From an uncultured Bacteroidia bacterium (GTDB lineage Bacteria > Bacteroidota > Bacteroidia > Bacteroidales > UBA932): 46,952 nt of DNA. Under the pieces are notes generated by a model, which saw only the letters and a program-made list of their open reading frames with translations, was not told where the DNA came from and ran no database searches. Positions within the stretch are counted from its first letter, which is position 1. Each line of letters opens with the position of its first letter. This document shows, in pieces, positions 37,774 to 46,643 of the stretch. The DNA lies in assembly GCA_902788175.1 (NCBI GenBank), contig CADAJF010000016.1, positions 1 through 46,952 on the forward strand, written 5' to 3'. The position numbers and the translations under genes are program-made.

Positions 37774-38682
37774 TTAAAATCTTATGCCAAAGCGCATGCC
37801 CACGGCAGGCTGGGCGGCATACTGGTTGGAAAGGACGGCGGGCTCTACGCGCATGGAGATGTTGTCGTCCACTTCAAAATCCTGCATGTAGGCAAAGACG
37901 TTGGCGTCAATGACCTGGAGGAGATAGGCAACGGCGGTGAAAAGGATGGAATAGTCCCGGTAGCGCCGGTAAAGGTCTCTGTAGTACTTGGCGTTTTCGC
38001 CGGACCAGGGCGGACGCTCGGTGATGCTCTCGTCGGTGGAGGTAGCCTGGTTGTGAATCCATTTCCAGCGGCGGTACTGGGTGTCGTTGTCCAGCCAGAA
38101 GTGGATGGTGCCGGCCATCAGGCCCCAGTAGATGGGTACTTTCCACAACTCTCCGTTGTAGAGCTGCCCCAGCCCGGGAAGCAGGAGGGAATAGACGGTG
38201 GCCTTGGCCGAGTTGGGATACTTCCCGCCCCGGTCGAACTGGATGGCTCCGTCCATCAGGGAGCCCCAGTACACCAGTCCGGCGCCTGCATACGCGAGCG
38301 TGCTGTAAGTCTTGTATTTGCTGTCCTGGGTGTCCTGGTACAGCTTGTTAAAGTGGATGCCGCCATAAATGCCGGCACCGATACCGCCATAAACGATGGG
38401 CAGTTTCCAGTATTGGCGGTGGTAAATCTGGTTGCCGCCCAGAAAGACTGCTGAACCCATGGTAAGGGTTTTCAGGGAAGCCTCCCGCTTGCCGGCCAGC
38501 CCTCCGAAGAACTCTTTGAAGCTGAACAGCTGGGAGGAGTCCGCGTTTTCCTTGAGGGTGGTGTCTGCGTAAGTCTGGGTGAAGGCGTCGCGCTTGAATT
38601 GGTCGTCCCGGTATTGGGCGGCCAGGGGCCAGGCTGCCAGGAGCCCGGCAAGAAGTACTATGAACTTCAGGGCTTTACTCAT
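37774..38682 (-). CDS. DUF5683 family membrane protein
   Basis: The 302-residue protein has a signal peptide or N-terminal anchor (FIVLLAGLLAAWPLAAQ) and several hydrophobic segments (GGIGAGIYGGI, AYAGAGLVYWGSL, YSLLLPGLGQLYNGE, IYWGLMAGTIHFWL and ILFTAVAYLLQVIDANV). The LLPGLGQLYNGELWK signature, with a downstream YRDLYRRYRDYS and a C-terminal MRFGIRF, matches the DUF5683 pattern seen between parB and mltD in Bacteroidales. Its function is unknown; conservation of the neighbourhood hints at a link between chromosome segregation and envelope growth. It overlaps the parB 3' end by four bases. Confidence 0.87.
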   Translation of the reverse strand: MSKALKFIVLLAGLLAAWPLAAQYRDDQFKRDAFTQTYADTTLKENADSSQLFSFKEFFGGLAGKREASLKTLTMGSAVFLGGNQIYHRQYWKLPIVYGGIGAGIYGGIHFNKLYQDTQDSKYKTYSTLAYAGAGLVYWGSLMDGAIQFDRGGKYPNSAKATVYSLLLPGLGQLYNGELWKVPIYWGLMAGTIHFWLDNDTQYRRWKWIHNQATSTDESITERPPWSGENAKYYRDLYRRYRDYSILFTAVAYLLQVIDANVFAYMQDFEVDDNISMRVEPAVLSNQYAAQPAVGMRFGIRF

Positions 38683-39608
38683 CGCTGGTCCAGGGCCTTG
38701 AGGAACTGCTCCATCTGGGCGTCGGAGTCGAAGCGGATGGTGAGGGAACCCTTTCCTTCGCGGCTGCGGCGAAGGGAGATATTCTCGCCGAAGTATCGGC
38801 CTACATTCTCCAGCAGGCGGTAGTACATTGGGGGGAGTTCTGCGGGTTCTTCGGCTTGGCGGGAGGCGGAAGGAGCTTCGCGCAGGGACTTGATTTTGTC
38901 CTCCAGCTGGCGCACGGACAGGCCGCCCCGGACTATGAGGTCACAGAGGTTTTCCTGGACGGCGGGGTCCTCCACGCCCAGCAGCACCTTGGCGTGGCCA
39001 ACGCTGAGCAGGCCCACCTTCAGGTCATGCTGCACTTTGGCGGGGAGCTTGAGCAGCCGCAGCTGGTTGGCTACCGAGGTGCGTTTCTTGCCCACTCTGT
39101 CGGCCATCTGTTCCTGCGTAAGGCGGCACTCTTCCATGAGGCGCTGGTAGCTCATGGCCACTTCGATGGGGTCCAGGTTTTCCCGCTGGATATTCTCCAC
39201 GATAGCCATTTCCAGCATGCCCTGGTCCGATGCGTCGCGGATGTAGGCGGGTATCATTTCCATACCGGCCAGGATGGAGGCCCGGTAACGGCGTTCGCCG
39301 CTGATTATCTGATACTTGCCGTCACCTTTATGCCGGACGGTAATGGGCTGGATAAGGCCGAAGGTACGGATGGATTCCGCTAGTTCCTGCAGGGCTTCGT
39401 TGTCAAAGTTCATGCGGGGCTGGAAAGGATTGGGCTCCAGCAGCGCTACCGGTATGCGGAGTACGTCCGAGGTGTCCTGGGGCTTTCCTTCTGCCGACAC
39501 AACTTCCTTGTTGATATAGCCCACGGGCTTTCTGAGCTGGGACAGGTCTTCGCCTCCGAGAAGGGCACCCAGCCCTTTCCCCAGGCCAAATTGCGGTTTT
39601 TTAGCCAT
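38679..39608 (-). CDS. parB: Chromosome-partitioning protein ParB
   Basis: The 309-residue protein is a ParB/Spo0J CTPase and parS-binding protein. It has GLGKGLGALLGGED at the N-terminus, ALLEPNPFQPRMNF (box I), KYQIISGERRYRASILAG (box II, CTP site), MLEMAIVENIQRENLDPIE (box III) and a central HTH (LTQEQMADRVGKKRTSVANQ). A ~55-residue C-terminal dimerisation domain ends it. ATG at 39608 overlaps the parA stop by eight bases, so parAB is translationally coupled. I see no exact parS (TGTTTCACGTGAAACA-like) in the window. Confidence 0.95.
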   Translation of the reverse strand: MAKKPQFGLGKGLGALLGGEDLSQLRKPVGYINKEVVSAEGKPQDTSDVLRIPVALLEPNPFQPRMNFDNEALQELAESIRTFGLIQPITVRHKGDGKYQIISGERRYRASILAGMEMIPAYIRDASDQGMLEMAIVENIQRENLDPIEVAMSYQRLMEECRLTQEQMADRVGKKRTSVANQLRLLKLPAKVQHDLKVGLLSVGHAKVLLGVEDPAVQENLCDLIVRGGLSVRQLEDKIKSLREAPSASRQAEEPAELPPMYYRLLENVGRYFGENISLRRSREGKGSLTIRFDSDAQMEQFLKALDQR

Positions 39609-40380
39609 GCTGTTTCTCGTTCTTGTCCAGGACCTCCTTGGCCAGGTTCATGTAGTTGGAGGTGCCGTTGTTCATTACATCGTAGAGGATGATGGGCTTG
39701 CCGTAGGAAGGGGCCTCGCTGAGACGGATGCTGCGCTGGATGATGGTGTCGAAGACCATTTCCTTGAAGTGCTCCCGCAGCTGGGCCACCACCTGGTTGT
39801 GTACCTTGGTGCGTCCGTCGAACATGGTCACTACAAAGCCCTCGATGGTAAGGTCCGGGTTGATCCCGTTTTGGACCAGGCGGATGGTCTGGATAAGTTT
39901 GGCCAGGCCTTCCAGGGCAAAGAATTCCGGCTGGACCGGGATCATCACTGAATCCGCTGCGGTAAGGCAGTTGACGGTGATAAAGCCCAGGGAAGGGGAG
40001 CAGTCCATGATGATGTAGTCGTAGCGGTCCTTGAGGGGCGCAAGGGCTTTTTTGAGCACGGATTCCCGCTCCGGTACGTTCTGGAGCTCGATTTCCGCGC
40101 CCACCAGGTTGATGTGGGAGGGAATCATGTGCAGTTTCTCCAGTTCTGTCTGGATAAGGGCATCCTGCGCCGAGAGCTTGCCGATAAGAATCTCATAGAG
40201 CGTGCGATGGTCGCTGTTCTCCGGGTCGAAGTTGAGGCCGGAGGTGGTGTTGGCCTGAGGGTCTGCGTCTATGATGAGGACGCTCTTTTCCAGCACGGCC
40301 AGCGATGCGGCCAGGTTGATGGCCGTGGTGGTTTTGCCCACACCGCCCTTCTGGTTGGCTATAGCGATAATTTTTCCCAT
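39601..40380 (-). CDS. parA: Chromosome-partitioning ATPase ParA/Soj
   Basis: The 259-residue ParA-type ATPase has the deviant Walker A KGGVGKTTTAINLA (~residues 11-24), the switch I region IIDADPQANTTSGL and Walker B-like YDYIIMDCSPSLGFI. It forms ATP-dependent dimers on the nucleoid that move ParB-bound origins. I chose the ATG at 40380 (MGKIIAIANQKGGVGK) because the promoter TACTTTTG lies immediately upstream; a longer ORF from 40446 reads through that promoter. Divergent from the PriA-like gene, with a 100-base shared gap. Confidence 0.95.
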   Translation of the reverse strand: MGKIIAIANQKGGVGKTTTAINLAASLAVLEKSVLIIDADPQANTTSGLNFDPENSDHRTLYEILIGKLSAQDALIQTELEKLHMIPSHINLVGAEIELQNVPERESVLKKALAPLKDRYDYIIMDCSPSLGFITVNCLTAADSVMIPVQPEFFALEGLAKLIQTIRLVQNGINPDLTIEGFVVTMFDGRTKVHNQVVAQLREHFKEMVFDTIIQRSIRLSEAPSYGKPIILYDVMNNGTSNYMNLAKEVLDKNEKQHG

Positions 40381-40419: not shown

Positions 40420-40480
40420 TATTGTTCCACAAAAAGTTCCACGCAAAGTGCCGATATTTTTTCGTATCTTCGCCCTTGCG

Positions 40481-42205
40481 ATGGAGCAGTTGTGCTACAT
40501 ACAGGTCCTGTTGCCGCTTCGCCTGGAGTGGGAACCCTATTACCTGGTGCCGGAAGAGATGACGGTGCGGGTAGGGGAGCATGTGCGCGTGGAGTTCGCC
40601 TGCAAGGACTATGTGGCGGTGGTGACAGCCGTAGGTGTGCAGCCCAGGCAGGAACTGGTTTCCCGCGTCCTGTACATCAAGGCCCGTGAGCCGGAGCTGC
40701 CCCCGGTATTCCCGGAAGAAATCCGCTTCTGGCGCACCCTGGCAGAGTATTATCTTTGTACGGCAGGGGAGGTGTACAAGGCTGCCTGCCCCGTCCGGGA
40801 GCGCAGCGGCGAGCCTCCTTCCATCCCTGAAGCCGCCGCTGGAAAGCTGGAACTTACTTCTGCCCAGGCAGCGGTGGCCGATACTTGCCGCAGCGCCTTC
40901 CAGGGCGGGAAGCCGGTCCTTCTTCGTGCCGCAGCCGGCAGGACGGAGATTTACCTGCAGCTGGCGCTGCAAACGCTTGCAGCGGGGCGCAGCGTCCTTC
41001 TCCTGGTCCCGGAAATTGCCCTTACCCGCCAGCTGGAAGAGCGCATCCGCTCCGTCATCCCGCAGGCGCTGGTTTACAACAGCGCCAAAACGGCCAAGCG
41101 CCGCGCGGCCGTGGCCGCGGCCGTCAGAGGTGGTGAGCCGTACCTGGTTCTGGGAACCCGATCGGCCCCTTTCCTGCCGCACCGGAACCTGGGGCTGGTG
41201 GTGGTGGACGAGGAACACGACCACTCCTTCAAGCAGGATTCTCCCGCTCCGCGCTACCATGCCCGCGAGAGCGCCATCATGCTCTCCCTGGTGCAGGGTG
41301 CATCGGTTCTTCTGGGCAGCGCAACCCCTTCTTTGGAATCGCTGTATAACGCTCAGAACAAAAGGTTTGTTCAGGTATATTTCAAGGAAAGCTTCAATAG
41401 TGGGAAAGCAGCCCGGATAGCCCTGATAGATACCGCCGGCGAGTACCGTAAAAAAGGGATGGCGGGCAGTTTTTCCCTCAAGCTCCTTGCCCACATGAAG
41501 GAGGCGCTTGACGGAGGGAAACAGGTGCTATTGCTGGGCCCTCGCCGCAGCAGTTTCCAGGGCCAGAAACTGGTCAGTGAAGTGCGGGAAATCTTCCCCG
41601 CTGCCAGCATCACTTTTTTGGACGAGGCGCCCAAGGCGGGGGAGCAAGGGGATATCATCATTGGCGGTGCATACCTGACCAAAGGCTTCCAGGCCAGGGA
41701 TTTGGGTCTTGTTGCCGCTGTTGCCGCGGATTCCATCCTCGCCCGCCAGGATTTCCGGGCCGACGAAAGGGCAGTCCAGGAGCTGGAACAGCTCAAAGGC
41801 CGCTGCCCGCTGGTGGTGATACAAACCCGCGAAGCCGCCCATCCTGTCTTCTCGCGCCTGGCTGCCGGGGAGGATGCCGTGGGCCCCATGCTGGAGGAGC
41901 GCCGCATAGCCTCCCTGCCGCCTTATACGCGCCTTCTGCACCTGAGCGTGAAGGATACGGATGCAGCCCGCGTGGATGCGCTTTCCCGGGAACTGGCTGC
42001 CGCTATTCCGCTTCCGCTGGTGGGGCCTTATACCCCTGCCGTGGCGGAACGTCAGCCCGGCAAGCACGTGCGGCAAATCCGCATCATGCTGCCCCGTGAC
42101 AAGGCGCTCAAAGAGCGCAAAACCCAGCTCAAGGCCCTGGTCCAGGCTTTTGAAAAAACGCATAAATACCTGGGGCACATTACTTTGGATGTGGACCCCG
42201 CTTAA
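40481..42205 (+). CDS. priA: PriA-like primosomal protein, degenerate helicase
   Basis: The 574-residue protein aligns along its length with PriA, the replication-restart helicase, but is ~150 residues shorter. Kept: the N-terminal 3'-DNA-binding domain (YIQVLLPLRLEWEPYYLVPE), motif II LGLVVVDEEHDHSFKQ, motif III LLGSATPSLESL, a motif V-like YLTKGFQARDLGLVAA and the C-terminal RIASLPPYTRLLHLSV. Changed: the P-loop reads LLRAAAGRTEIYLQ where PriA has LLxGVTGSGKTEVYL, so Lys is missing and two residues are deleted; all eight zinc-binding Cys are absent; and the QVAGRAGR motif VI is gone. It is a continuous frame, so this is loss, not frameshift. Probably a structural or DNA-binding remnant of the primosome. 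Start at ATG 40481. Confidence 0.85.
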   Translation: MEQLCYIQVLLPLRLEWEPYYLVPEEMTVRVGEHVRVEFACKDYVAVVTAVGVQPRQELVSRVLYIKAREPELPPVFPEEIRFWRTLAEYYLCTAGEVYKAACPVRERSGEPPSIPEAAAGKLELTSAQAAVADTCRSAFQGGKPVLLRAAAGRTEIYLQLALQTLAAGRSVLLLVPEIALTRQLEERIRSVIPQALVYNSAKTAKRRAAVAAAVRGGEPYLVLGTRSAPFLPHRNLGLVVVDEEHDHSFKQDSPAPRYHARESAIMLSLVQGASVLLGSATPSLESLYNAQNKRFVQVYFKESFNSGKAARIALIDTAGEYRKKGMAGSFSLKLLAHMKEALDGGKQVLLLGPRRSSFQGQKLVSEVREIFPAASITFLDEAPKAGEQGDIIIGGAYLTKGFQARDLGLVAAVAADSILARQDFRADERAVQELEQLKGRCPLVVIQTREAAHPVFSRLAAGEDAVGPMLEERRIASLPPYTRLLHLSVKDTDAARVDALSRELAAAIPLPLVGPYTPAVAERQPGKHVRQIRIMLPRDKALKERKTQLKALVQAFEKTHKYLGHITLDVDPA

Positions 42206-42217
42206 TAAACCTCTCCT

Positions 42218-42844
42218 ATGGATGCTGCCCTCACCGCTTTTTTGGAAAATGAGATCATTCCCCGTTATGCGGGCTTTGACAAGGCCCACCGGGAAGACCA
42301 TGCCCGGGCTGTGGTGGCCCGGGCGCTGGAACTGTCGGCCCACTATCCCGTGAAGGAGGAGATGGTGTTTGCGGCTGCCGCCTGCCATGACCTGGGCCTT
42401 GCCATAGACCGCAAGACGCACCACCTGGAAAGCGGGCGCATGATCCGCGAAATGGCCCCCTTGCGCCGCTGGTTTACGGAGGAAGAGATAGAGACCATCG
42501 CGCAGGCGGCGGAAGACCACCGCGCCTCGTCGGACCATGCTCCCCGCAGCATCTACGGCCGGATTGTGGCAGAGGCGGACCGCCTCATAGTCCCGCAGCA
42601 GATTATCCGCCGCACCGTGCAGTTCGGCCTGGCCAATTACCCGGACCTGGAGAAAGATGGCCACTGGCAGCGCACCCTGGCGCACTTGCATGAGAAATAC
42701 TACTACGGCGGCTATCTGCAGCTATGGATACCGGAGTCTCCCAATGCGGAAAAACTGGAGGAACTTCGCCGCATAATCAGCGACGAGCTCGCCCTGAGGG
42801 ACATCTTCGAGGCTATCTGGAAGGAAGAAACAGCGGCTTCTTGA
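42218..42844 (+). CDS. HD-domain protein (putative phosphohydrolase)
   Basis: The 208-residue protein contains an HD-type metal-dependent phosphohydrolase domain. The signature residues are His in FDKAHREDHARAVVAR, the HD pair in AAACHDLGLAID (~residues 62-73), His in EDHRASSDH and the Asp in IVAEADRLI. HD proteins of this size cleave nucleotides or nucleotide second messengers, but the substrate cannot be predicted. It starts 12 bases after the PriA-like gene and belongs to the same transcript. A 140-base gap with the hydrogenase promoter follows. Confidence 0.87.
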   Translation: MDAALTAFLENEIIPRYAGFDKAHREDHARAVVARALELSAHYPVKEEMVFAAAACHDLGLAIDRKTHHLESGRMIREMAPLRRWFTEEEIETIAQAAEDHRASSDHAPRSIYGRIVAEADRLIVPQQIIRRTVQFGLANYPDLEKDGHWQRTLAHLHEKYYYGGYLQLWIPESPNAEKLEELRRIISDELALRDIFEAIWKEETAAS

Positions 42845-42984: not shown

Positions 42985-44889
42985 ATGATCATCCACTCAC
43001 CCGATGCCCTTGAGGGCATCCGACAGAAGGCCATTGAAGCCCTGTCCGTCCGGGAGGCCAGTAACAACTCCAGCACCACAGAAGCTGCGGGCCTGGAGAA
43101 GGGTACGCCCCACATGCAGATTCTCTGCTGCGGCGGTACCGGTTGCAAAGCCTCCGAAAGTGCCAAGATTGTTGATAACTTCCATGCAGCGCTCAAGGCC
43201 CACGGTGTCGCCGATAAGGTAGAGGTCGTGGTTCCCGGTTGCTTCGGTTTCTGCGAGAAAGGCCCCATCGTCAAAATCGTTCCGGACAATACGTTCTATA
43301 CGTCCGTGAAGCCGGAAGACGTGGAGGAGATTGTTTCCTCGCACATTATCGGCGGCCAGAAGGTAGAGCGCCTGCTGTACCAGGATCCCGGCACCGGAGA
43401 GCACATCTCGGACTCCAAGCACATGAATTTCTACCGCAAACAGATGCGAATCGCCCTTCGCAACTGCGGTTTCATCGATCCGGAGAACATCCTGGAATAC
43501 ATTGCCCGTGACGGTTACAAGGCCCTGGCCACCAGCCTCACGCGTGAGAGCACGGATGTCCTCGCCGATATCAAAGCCTCCGGCCTTCGCGGCCGCGGCG
43601 GCGCCGGTTTCCCCACCGGCGTGAAGTGGGAGATCGCCCGCAAGTTCGACGCCCCCCAGAAATACGTCGTCTGCAACGCCGACGAAGGAGACCCGGGCGC
43701 CTTCATGGACCGTTCCATCATGGAGGGTGACCCCCATTCCGTGATCGAGGCCATGATGCTCTGCGGCTACTGCATCAACGCACACAATGGTCTTATCTAT
43801 ATCCGTGCCGAGTATCCCCTCGCTGTCCACCGCCTCCAAGTAGCCATCCGCCAGGCCCGTGAATACGGCCTGCTGGGCAAGGACATCATGGGCACGGGCT
43901 TCGACTTCGACATCGAAATCCGCTACGGCGCCGGTGCTTTTGTCTGCGGCGAGGAAACCGCCCTCATCCACTCCATGGAAGGCAAGCGCGGAGAGCCCAC
44001 CCTCAAGCCCCCGTTCCCGGCAGAGGCTGGCTACATGGGCCGTCCCACCAACGTGAACAACGTGGAGACCCTGGCCAACGTGCCGGTGATCCTCACCAAG
44101 GGCCCCCAGTGGTTCGCTTCCATCGGCACGGAAAAATCCAAGGGCACCAAGGTATTCGCCCTGGCTGGTAAGATCAACAACGTGGGCCTGATCGAAGTGC
44201 CCATGGGAACCACCCTGCGTGAGATTATCTATGATATTGGCGGCGGCGTCAAGAACGGCAAGAAGTTCAAGGCCGTCCAGACCGGCGGTCCTTCCGGCGG
44301 CTGCCTCACGGAAAAGCACCTGGACATCCCCATCGACTACGAGTCCCTGGCGGCTGCCGGCTCCATGATGGGCTCTGGCGGTATGATTGTCATGGACGAA
44401 GACGACTGCATGGTCTCCGTAGCCAAGTTCTTCCTGGAATTCACCGTGGACGAGTCCTGCGGCAAGTGCACGCCCTGCCGTATCGGCAACCGGCGCATGC
44501 TGGAAATCCTGGACCGCATTACCCAGGGCCGCGGCACCATGGAAGACCTGGATACTCTTGAGAACCTGGCCAAGGTGATCAAGGACACCGCCCTTTGCGG
44601 CCTGGGCCAGACTTCCCCCAACCCCGTGCTTTCTACCCTCGCCAACTTCCGCGAGGAATACGAGGAGCACGTAAAGGACCACATCTGCCGTGCCCGCAAG
44701 TGCAAGGACCTCCTCACGTATTCCATCGACCCTGCCAAGTGCAAGGGCTGCAGCGCCTGTGCGCGCGGCTGCCCCGCAGAGGCCATCATGGGCGAGGTGC
44801 GCAAACCTTTCGTCATCAACCCCGAAAAGTGCATCCGCTGCGGCATGTGCCTGTCCCGTTGTAAGTTTGGCGCCATTAACGTAATTTGA
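42985..44889 (+). CDS. hydB: Trimeric [FeFe] hydrogenase, NAD-binding subunit HydB (NuoF-like)
   Basis: The 634-residue subunit binds FMN and NAD(H) in an electron-bifurcating hydrogenase. An N-terminal thioredoxin-like [2Fe-2S] domain (~45-130) has ILCCGGTGCKAS and VVPGCFGFCEKG. The NuoF-type core follows: GLRGRGGAGFPTGVKWEIAR, VVCNADEGDPGAFMDRSIME, the SLBB domain, and the [4Fe-4S] site DESCGKCTPCRIGNRRMLE with TALCGLGQ. A C-terminal two-cluster ferredoxin reads CKGCSACARGCPAEAIMGEV and CIRCGMCLSRCKFGAI. This domain order is that of Thermotoga-type HydB. The hydA ATG follows the stop by two bases. Antisense ORFs across it are shadows. Confidence 0.94.
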   Translation: MIIHSPDALEGIRQKAIEALSVREASNNSSTTEAAGLEKGTPHMQILCCGGTGCKASESAKIVDNFHAALKAHGVADKVEVVVPGCFGFCEKGPIVKIVPDNTFYTSVKPEDVEEIVSSHIIGGQKVERLLYQDPGTGEHISDSKHMNFYRKQMRIALRNCGFIDPENILEYIARDGYKALATSLTRESTDVLADIKASGLRGRGGAGFPTGVKWEIARKFDAPQKYVVCNADEGDPGAFMDRSIMEGDPHSVIEAMMLCGYCINAHNGLIYIRAEYPLAVHRLQVAIRQAREYGLLGKDIMGTGFDFDIEIRYGAGAFVCGEETALIHSMEGKRGEPTLKPPFPAEAGYMGRPTNVNNVETLANVPVILTKGPQWFASIGTEKSKGTKVFALAGKINNVGLIEVPMGTTLREIIYDIGGGVKNGKKFKAVQTGGPSGGCLTEKHLDIPIDYESLAAAGSMMGSGGMIVMDEDDCMVSVAKFFLEFTVDESCGKCTPCRIGNRRMLEILDRITQGRGTMEDLDTLENLAKVIKDTALCGLGQTSPNPVLSTLANFREEYEEHVKDHICRARKCKDLLTYSIDPAKCKGCSACARGCPAEAIMGEVRKPFVINPEKCIRCGMCLSRCKFGAINVI

Positions 44890-44891
44890 TT

Positions 44892-46643
44892 ATGATTAAC
44901 CTTACTATAGACAACAGGGCCGTGAGCGTGCCCGAGGGAACTACCGTTCTGGATGCTGCTGCATCGATCGGCATCAATATTCCCGCCCTGTGCCACATGG
45001 ACCTCAAAGGTACCTGTGTGAAGAATGCCCCGGCTTCCTGCCGCATCTGCGTGGTGGAGGTGGAAGGCCGTCGCAACCTGGCCCCTTCCTGCGCTACCCT
45101 CGTGGCGGAGGGCATGGTGGTCCGCACCAACTCGGCCCGCGTAGCTAAAGCCCGCAAGACCGTTGCGGAGCTCATCCTCTCGGACCATCCCAATGACTGT
45201 CTCACCTGCGCCAAGTGCAATGACTGCGAACTCCAGAAACTGGTTACGCGCTTCAATATCCGCCGCATGACCTACAAGGGAGAGCAGTCCAGCCGCAAGA
45301 AGGAAGAGACGGTGGCCATCACCCGCAACATGGACAAGTGCATCCTGTGCCGCCGCTGCGAAACCGTTTGCAACCAGGTACAGACCGTGGGTGTGCTGGG
45401 CGCCATCCGCCGTGGCTTCGATACCACCATCGCCCCCACCTTCGACCGCATGTTCACGGAAACCGACTGCACCTATTGCGGTCAGTGCGTGGCTGTCTGT
45501 CCCACCGGCGCCCTCACGGAGCGCGACAACACGGACCGTCTCCTGGAAGACCTCTGCAACCCGGACAAGGTTGTCATCGCCCAGCCGGCACCGGCCGTTC
45601 GCGTGGGCCTGGGAGAGGAATTCGGCATGGAGCCCGGTACCATCGTCACCGGCAAGCTGGCCACTGCGCTGCGTTACCTGGGCTTTGACCATGTCTTTGA
45701 TACGGACTTTGCAGCAGACCTTACCATCATGGAAGAAGGCGCGGAAATCCTGCACCGCCTCAAGGCTTACCTGGGCGGCGACAAGAGCGTGAAACTCCCC
45801 ATCATGACTTCCTGCTGCCCGGCCTGGGTGAACTTTTATGAGCATACCTATCCGGACCTGCTGGGGTATCCTTCATCGGCCAAGTCCCCGGCGCAGATGT
45901 TTGGCGCCGTCGCCAAAACATACTGGGCCCAAAAGATGGGTATCCCCCGCGAGAAACTGGTGGTGGTTTCCATCATGCCTTGCCTCGCTAAGAAGTATGA
46001 GTGCGGCCGTGAGGAGTTCTCCGTCAACGGCAACCCGGATGTGGATTATTCCCTTTCCACCCGTGAGCTGGCACGCCTTATCAAGCGTTCCAATATAGAC
46101 TTCAAGTCCCTCCCGGATACGGATTTCGACACCCCCATGGGCGAAAGTTCCGGTGCTGCGGCCATTTTCGGCGCCACCGGCGGCGTGATGGAAGCAGCCC
46201 TGCGTACCGTGTACGAAGTCTATACCGGTAAAACCTTGCCGCGCATTGAATTCACGGATGTGCGTGGCCTGGAAGGCATCAAGGAAGCTACCATCGACCT
46301 TGCCGGCGTTCCCGTCAAGGTGTGCGTAGCCCATACCCTGGGCAACGCTCGCATCCTGATGGACAAGCTCCGCAAGGGAGAGCTGGATTACCATGTAGTG
46401 GAGGTGATGGCCTGCCCCGGCGGCTGCATCGGCGGCGCCGGCCAGCCTTACCACCACGGCAACGTGGAGATTCTCAAGGCCCGCACGCGCGCCATCTACC
46501 AGGAGGATGAAGGCAAGCCCATCCGCAAGAGCCACGAGAACCCGGACATCCAGAAACTGTACAAGGACTTCCTGGGTGAGCCGCTGGGAGAGCTCTCGGA
46601 AAAACTCCTCCATACCCATTATTTCAACAAAGCCATCAATTAG
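44892..46643 (+). CDS. hydA: [FeFe] hydrogenase catalytic subunit HydA (NAD-linked type)
   Basis: The 583-residue protein carries the H-cluster that reduces protons to H2. The three signature motifs are intact: TSCCPAWVNFYE, MPCLAKKYECGR and EVMACPGGCIGGAGQPYH. The N-terminal part has a [2Fe-2S] domain (ALCHMDLKGTC, SCRICVVEVEG), an accessory CLTCAKCNDCELQKL cluster with the His-Cys3-like region, and a two-cluster ferredoxin (CILCRRCETVCNQ, CTYCGQCVAVCPTGAL). This is the group A trimeric/bifurcating arrangement. Start ATG 44892, two bases after hydB, chosen over a TTG at 44886. The maturases hydE, hydF and hydG are not in the window. Confidence 0.96.
   Translation: MINLTIDNRAVSVPEGTTVLDAAASIGINIPALCHMDLKGTCVKNAPASCRICVVEVEGRRNLAPSCATLVAEGMVVRTNSARVAKARKTVAELILSDHPNDCLTCAKCNDCELQKLVTRFNIRRMTYKGEQSSRKKEETVAITRNMDKCILCRRCETVCNQVQTVGVLGAIRRGFDTTIAPTFDRMFTETDCTYCGQCVAVCPTGALTERDNTDRLLEDLCNPDKVVIAQPAPAVRVGLGEEFGMEPGTIVTGKLATALRYLGFDHVFDTDFAADLTIMEEGAEILHRLKAYLGGDKSVKLPIMTSCCPAWVNFYEHTYPDLLGYPSSAKSPAQMFGAVAKTYWAQKMGIPREKLVVVSIMPCLAKKYECGREEFSVNGNPDVDYSLSTRELARLIKRSNIDFKSLPDTDFDTPMGESSGAAAIFGATGGVMEAALRTVYEVYTGKTLPRIEFTDVRGLEGIKEATIDLAGVPVKVCVAHTLGNARILMDKLRKGELDYHVVEVMACPGGCIGGAGQPYHHGNVEILKARTRAIYQEDEGKPIRKSHENPDIQKLYKDFLGEPLGELSEKLLHTHYFNKAIN

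Follow-up and report, generated by a model that had tools for sequence, protein, structure and literature searches.

Results

The priA locus

The window, by which we mean the whole stretch of 46,952 nucleotides analysed here, belongs to the genome of an uncultured Bacteroidales bacterium (2.09 Mb in 58 contigs, 84.5% complete). Positions 40481..42205 of its + strand, which also carries all features of the gene given below, form a single open reading frame that encodes 574 residues and has no internal stop. An alternative GTG start at 40448 would yield 585 residues; it is the ATG start that aligns with most relatives. The product is recognized by the NCBIfam priA model TIGR00595 (251.2 bits against a cut-off of 230.35) and, above their cut-offs, by the Pfam models DEAD (2e-10) and PriA_3primeBD (PF17764; 4.9e-14, and 4.3e-15 in the genome-level search), the latter placing the 3'-DNA-binding domain at 40502..40792. 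Eight PRK05580 equivalog models also match, all far below their cut-offs. The C-terminal domain (41921..42199) reaches 21.1 bits with PriA_C (PF18074), below the cut-off of 26.9, and is covered by the fold match. In a phmmer comparison the protein matches the solved PriA structure 4nl4 at 2.9e-51. An AlphaFold model computed from the window protein and 51 relatives is confident (pLDDT 89.5, pTM 0.90), and its nine best Foldseek matches in the PDB are all PriA, matched over the full length, with TMq values of 0.84 for 8fak_H and 0.82 for 6dcr_A; the top match is 6dcr, an E. coli PriA with the winged helix deleted. The window gene is thus a member of the PriA family by profile, by match to solved structures and by predicted fold, and the PriA domain order in one unbroken frame that the first-pass annotation had described is borne out. 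We found no second PriA, complete or otherwise, in the 84.5% of the genome that is represented; the only other match is the Mfd gene on C6.

The divergent neighbour of priA is parA (39601..40380, - strand), followed by parB (38679..39608, - strand). Among 37 loci checked in the genus, parA adjoins priA in 10, six of them intact (L032, L033, L146, L154, L158 and L166) and four degenerate (L144, L145, L167 and L170), and since most of these loci had only about 1.5 kb of flank, the misses mean little. Intact priA genes beside parA include those of G061 and G333. Such a neighbour, common to intact and degenerate loci, fits one orthologous gene that changed in place. We considered the parAB linkage as a clue to function and rejected it, because intact genes have the parA neighbour too. 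Downstream of priA lie a gene for an HD-domain protein (42218-42844) and an [FeFe]-hydrogenase pair (42985-46643) composed of a NuoF-like subunit and the hydrogenase catalytic subunit.

Motifs and modules lost from the window protein

The Walker A motif GxTGxGKT is absent from the window protein. At its place (40919..40960, residues 147-160) alignment with intact and degenerate relatives puts LLRAAAGRTEIYLQ, a shortened loop with the core AAAGRTEIY, in which R154 occupies the position of the former lysine; intact members of the genus read LLHGVTGSGKTEIYL (G003) and LLHGVTGAGKTELYL (G005). The zinc module has disappeared altogether. None of its eight cysteines is present, and the whole segment of about 60 residues is deleted rather than merely mutated, with the junction near residues 357-358 (41549..41554), and the six remaining cysteines of the protein (5, 41, 93, 103, 136 and 442) sit elsewhere. 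The Pfam PriA zinc-ribbon model PF18319 has no match anywhere in the window genome, though it does match 8 of 14 control genomes. At the site of motif VI (ELEQLKGRCP, 41780..41809) the window protein has LKGRCP, where most intact genus relatives have FRGR[CS]GRR and the other Bacteroidota aligned have QVSGRAGR. Finally, a linker of about 16 residues (40793..40840) replaces the winged-helix domain: the phmmer alignment to 4nl4 skips from 127 to 207, which leaves no room for this domain, and the winged-helix-deletion structure is the best fold match.

The first-pass annotation had claimed the degenerate Walker A, the disappearance of all eight zinc cysteines and the missing motif VI, and all three hold. 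Its prediction that such a PriA should not hydrolyse ATP is supported by the loss of the P-loop and motif VI from the sequence. Its statement that the DNA-binding parts are retained is true of the 3'-binding domain and of the C-terminal fold, but the winged helix and the zinc module are gone; judging by the alignments, then, the fork-binding equipment is itself stripped down. The proposal of that annotation that the protein may load the helicase without unwinding agrees with what the sequence-based checks gave, with the qualification that the state is a repeated one in the genus and not that of a single odd gene. The missing winged helix, the spread through the genus and the Deinococcus parallel go beyond what the annotation mentioned. 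A charged linker also stands at the winged-helix position in the consensus of the genus alignments, intact members included, so the loss of the winged helix may predate that of the motor.

Distribution of degenerate PriA across the genus

Our first search covered 61 genomes, namely the window's own, 36 of the same genus and 24 of the same order, and the same-genus matches fell into two kinds with long and short frames. More genus members were then added, giving 124 aligned PriA rows, from which we excluded before counting G010, G366 and G404 as short or split, G002 for its missing 5' end, three duplicates and the five outgroup rows. The 115 distinct genus sequences that were left comprise 48 intact proteins, 61 lacking both the P-loop and the zinc module and 6 intermediates (G387, G148, G242, G078, G289 and G247) that have lost the zinc module and kept the Walker A lysine; because sequences were picked partly for high or low profile scores, the ratio of intact to degenerate is not a census. 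The opposite combination, a lost P-loop with a retained zinc module, occurs in none of the 115. Intact proteins such as those of G003, G005 and L032 carry GVTG(S/A)GKT, eight cysteines and FRGR[CS]GRR, and these three are 53-58% identical to the window protein. The PriA proteins of L032 and L033 are identical over the tree columns to those of genus members G093 and G359. Since the same class of change is seen in many members of the genus, it is attributable neither to chance nor to a local sequencing error.

For a census we relied on profiles. The zinc-module profile matches 192 of the 400 genomes of the genus; among the 150 of high quality, 88 match. The PriA profile matches all 150 high-quality genomes, six of them only through a weak Mfd-type match, which leaves about 144 with PriA; roughly 56 of these (near 40%) show no zinc module, and two of the latter hold PriA fragments only (G022 and G180). 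In a search of their entire assemblies, all 67 degenerate or intermediate genomes proved to be devoid of the zinc module. For the six high-quality genomes without PriA (G032, G245, G259, G335, G340 and G388) a degenerate-only profile finds just Mfd/RecG-sized frames; as these genomes are 91-95% complete, the absence may be due to chance and we claim no loss. Outside the genus, a survey of one genome from each of 24 families of the order gave 22 matches with PriA frames of 682-860 aa. All five outgroup rows have the P-loop lysine and eight cysteines, and the intact form is therefore taken as ancestral.

Several individual genes deserve mention in their own right. The priA of G366 (C13:36318-38238, L205) is split into frames of 327 and 331 aa with the zinc module present, which may reflect misassembly or damage of another sort. 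In G074, G136, G163, G252 and G296 the match to the zinc module is broken into two, which may mean internal insertions. G257 has two different degenerate priA genes (C60:7783-9261 and C34:43395-45173), probably from a mixed bin given its assembly contamination of 7%. A long-frame priA in G073 (C180:271-2412) contains one in-frame TAG.

Residues kept in degenerate proteins

The window member keeps several motor motifs intact in the alignment: motif II, DEEH (41207..41218), motif III, LGSATPSLES (41312..41341), and a remnant of motif V, TKGF (41678..41689). Conservation over the 61 degenerate proteins is distributed unevenly. Positions W84, Y90, Y91 and C93 of the 3'-DNA-binding domain are found in at least 97% of them. 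In the loop after motif II, KQDSPAPRYHAR (41231..41266), which we take to be the HD1 loop that is wedged into the fork in E. coli PriA (PMC10175261), K251, P257 and R262 are kept in 59, 61 and 61 of 61. R426, D428 and E429 of the DFRADER block in the second motor lobe (41750..41770) are present in all 61, as are P480, P481 and R484 of the C-terminal region. In total, 91 alignment columns are at least 85% identical among the degenerate proteins.

The catalytic residues tell a different story. All 48 intact proteins have the Walker A lysine, whereas the degenerate ones have arginine in 52 cases, another residue in 7 and lysine in 2, the last two being classed as P-loop-less with a lysine at the aligned position inside an otherwise lost loop. 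In motif II the aspartate is kept in 43 of the 61, the catalytic glutamate in 30 (altered in 31) and the next glutamate in all; the motif V glycine survives in 6 and the second arginine of motif VI in none. As far as the alignment can tell, then, catalytic positions drift and neighbouring positions, presumably DNA-facing or structural, stay. A single base change readily turns lysine into arginine, and the recurrence of this replacement is therefore not in itself proof of selection; the persistence of arginine through deep clades nevertheless suggests that selection is at work.

Selection on the shortened gene

Estimates of dN/dS for 14 degenerate pairs range from 0.08 to 0.33 (median 0.14), with 0.15 for one intermediate pair, against 0.06-0.15 (median 0.095) for nine intact pairs. 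The median of the degenerate copies is about 1.5 times that of the intact ones, and many dS values exceed 1, where the NG86 method is rough. The window gene compared with seven relatives gives 0.26-0.31 at dS of 1.2-1.6. When nine degenerate and eight intact pairs were pooled by domain, the two motor lobes stood at 0.21 and 0.17 in degenerate versus 0.09 and 0.09 in intact genes, the 3'-binding domain at 0.18 versus 0.13 and the C-terminal domain at 0.185 versus 0.16. In other words, the motor has become less constrained but is still under constraint, and the two ends change less in this respect. Codon substitution in the degenerate copies, the window's included, thus has the mark of purifying selection, and the shortened priA appears to be still kept by it.

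Number and order of the losses

To count the losses we used two trees. The PriA tree, computed with the lost regions removed, gives five separate losses if regain of the zinc module is excluded and four changes by parsimony; it was computed quickly, leaves many forks open and may draw degenerate rows together. The Mfd tree comprises 69 genomes, with the long-branch G035 left out, and its bootstrap is not fully settled; it requires 7 changes between intact and lost by parsimony (6-8 in the bootstrap trees) and 15 without regain. Even with every branch below 95 collapsed it keeps at least three such changes. The losses of PriA regions have thus happened several times inside the genus. The intact G014 (70% complete) falls among degenerate genomes in the Mfd tree without a resolved position. 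G019 has two equal-scoring Mfd genes on separate contigs (C29 and C40), perhaps a binning duplicate.

In the Mfd tree the window genome is sister to G387 (99/94), and the pair stands beside the intact G005 and G061 (94/83); the PriA tree recovers the same window/G387 and G005/G061 grouping (94 and 89). G387 has lost the zinc module and still has the P-loop GVTGAGKT. It follows from this sister relationship that the line of the window lost the zinc module first and the P-loop later. The zinc-first step is seen again around G078, together with G277 and G081, and around G289, together with G313. We also considered that the motifs might be lost in a set order once the zinc module is gone, but the intermediates contradict this: among the six, the motif V glycine is kept in 1 (the alignment is gappy near motif V) and the catalytic glutamate of motif II in 3, yet the window protein has lost its P-loop and kept motifs II, III and V. 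Our claim on order is consequently limited to the zinc module being lost before the Walker A lysine.

Discussion

We consider it probable that in these bacteria the orthologous priA has turned into an ATP-independent PriA 'pseudohelicase', which recognizes forks and helps to recruit DnaB/DciA. In the E. coli complex the leading arm is held by the 3'BD and CTD and the parental duplex by HD1 together with the winged helix, and the lagging-strand ssDNA has a pore that is framed by the zinc module, HD2 and CTD; besides docking PriB, the zinc module carries the strand-separating hairpin and is critical for unwinding (PMC10175261). PriA-PriB restart in vivo needs neither the ATPase nor the helicase activity of PriA (PMC10175261). 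It has been proposed that PriA may act with DciA in Caulobacter (PMC9825169).

On this background, the lineages concerned would have shifted to restart without unwinding by PriA. Since the zinc module carries the hairpin in E. coli, its loss would make the motor useless, and the ATP site with its P-loop would then erode. Binding to abandoned replication forks could still rely on the 3'-binding domain, the C-terminal domain and the loop that follows motif II, and the degenerate PriA would help to recruit the DnaB-DciA helicase complex at forks where the lagging strand is already single-stranded; at other forks a second translocase, RecG for instance, may lay bare the single strand that is required. 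The motifs of the window protein suggest that it has lost both ATP hydrolysis and DNA unwinding, and we infer fork binding and DnaB recruitment from the parts that it keeps. The window genome (G000) does have a DnaB gene. DciA is found in 78 of 80 genus genomes, G000 included, and is missing in G031 (degenerate) and G152 (intact), while RecG is found in 79 of 80, again including G000, and is missing only in the intact G014 (70% complete). We had considered that DciA or RecG might track degenerate PriA and rejected this, as both are near-universal with both kinds of PriA.

Against the view of PriA as an adaptor it may be said that, by analogy with the role of the zinc module in E. coli, a zinc-less PriA may load the helicase poorly and may need another partner surface. 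It may also be said that the winged helix is gone as well and that DEEH, SAT and TKGF persist in the window member. A bolder version of the idea, whose chances we would put somewhat below even, is that selection has repeatedly made PriA a pore-less, wedge-less and ATP-free fork adaptor. The zinc module would always go first, followed by the P-loop and motor motifs, the replacing arginine would itself be selected, and helicase loading would have passed to a partner protein or contact surface that E. coli is not known to use.

It is also conceivable, though unlikely, that priA is simply decaying, on its way to loss since restart is done otherwise, and that we see copies at different stages. The number of lost motifs does vary among degenerate copies, the motor lobes are relaxed about twofold, 6 of 150 high-quality genomes have no PriA and one gene (G366) is split. 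However, the 61 distinct versions without a P-loop have remained long open frames in spite of their deep divergence, and among the extracted rows only G010, G366 and G404 are shorter than 480 aa, two of these three being located at the end of a contig. Decay is equally at odds with the low dN/dS of all 14 degenerate pairs, with the 91 strongly conserved columns and with arginine at the former lysine in 52 of 61.

Rather improbable, in our opinion, is that PriA has left restart for another role, be it chromosome segregation beside ParAB or that of an access-blocking fork sensor. What speaks for it is that parA/parB adjoin priA in the window and parA does so in four degenerate relatives, and that known contact surfaces have gone with the zinc module and the winged helix. 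Yet parA stands beside six intact loci, and at most other degenerate loci it was not observed in the roughly 1.5 kb around priA, so the adjacency does not track the loss; moreover, almost every residue that the degenerate copies retain is also present in intact PriA. That ATP is still used through a non-standard site is very improbable: the window member does retain DEEH, SAT and TKGF, but its P-loop is shortened, the lysine is replaced by arginine and motif VI is lost, and K230R alone abolishes the ATPase of E. coli PriA (as cited in PMC4504706). An assembly, binning or sequencing artefact has a negligible chance, since, although the window genome is unfinished (58 contigs), the same class of changes is present in dozens of separate genomes, some of 5 to 30 contigs (G121 and G346), and the codons of the window gene are under purifying selection; for the class of degenerate priA this explanation is already refuted.

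If the pseudohelicase reading is correct, a genus in which about 4 in 10 of the sampled high-quality genomes are zinc-less represents a natural experiment on motor-free PriA. Comparison within it could show which traits are common to motor-less species and which residues of PriA are important without unwinding, and, at the level of single residues, the data of the genus tell fork recognition and ATP hydrolysis apart. The findings suggest that a motor-less PriA marks broken replication forks rather than unwinding them. They also mean that the annotation 'primosomal protein N-prime' is no guarantee of a helicase.

Comparison with known systems

The closest parallel is PriA of Deinococcus radiodurans, which has GRT in place of GKT, shows no measurable ATPase or helicase activity and binds forks and DnaB (Lopper et al. 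2015, PMC4504706). The window ortholog resembles it in the change of the Walker A lysine to arginine (R154) with DNA-binding parts kept. Unlike the Deinococcus protein, it has no zinc module, motif VI or winged helix and its P-loop is shortened, and the change in the genus arose several times, with intermediates present. The Deinococcus-type alteration of motif II is not found in the window, where DEEH is kept, but the catalytic glutamate is altered in 31 of 61 degenerate relatives. Among our control genomes the PriA zinc-ribbon model matches Deinobacterium and Thermus, a genome-level result that does not show the place of the match in the genome.

Actinobacterial PriA is of the PRK14873 type, for which UniProt notes missing helicase motifs. 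Rocha et al. (2005, PMC1193525) call it 'smaller and very divergent', and count PriA as absent from D. radiodurans. The window PriA is likewise shortened and divergent. In our Corynebacterium control the zinc-ribbon model is silent and the 3'BD model matches; because the zinc-ribbon model also misses Caulobacter, its silence is weak evidence. The actinobacterial divergence has been described phylum-wide, whereas the window case lies within one genus, and we know of no mixed genus or intermediate series for actinobacterial PriA.

Two of the changes in the window have laboratory counterparts in E. coli, K230R and the 6dcr construct. K230R is ATPase-dead and assembles primosomes, as cited in PMC4504706. 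Both were made by hand and keep the zinc module, which the window PriA lacks. Our search of the open-licence literature found no earlier report of such a Bacteroidales PriA. A pseudohelicase PriA in Deinococcus and a small, divergent PriA in actinobacteria are known, and the form in this genus is a recurrent and more stripped variant. What is new, within the literature searched, is that in one genus of Bacteroidales the change has happened repeatedly, involves loss of the zinc module and can be followed alongside intact sisters and intermediates.
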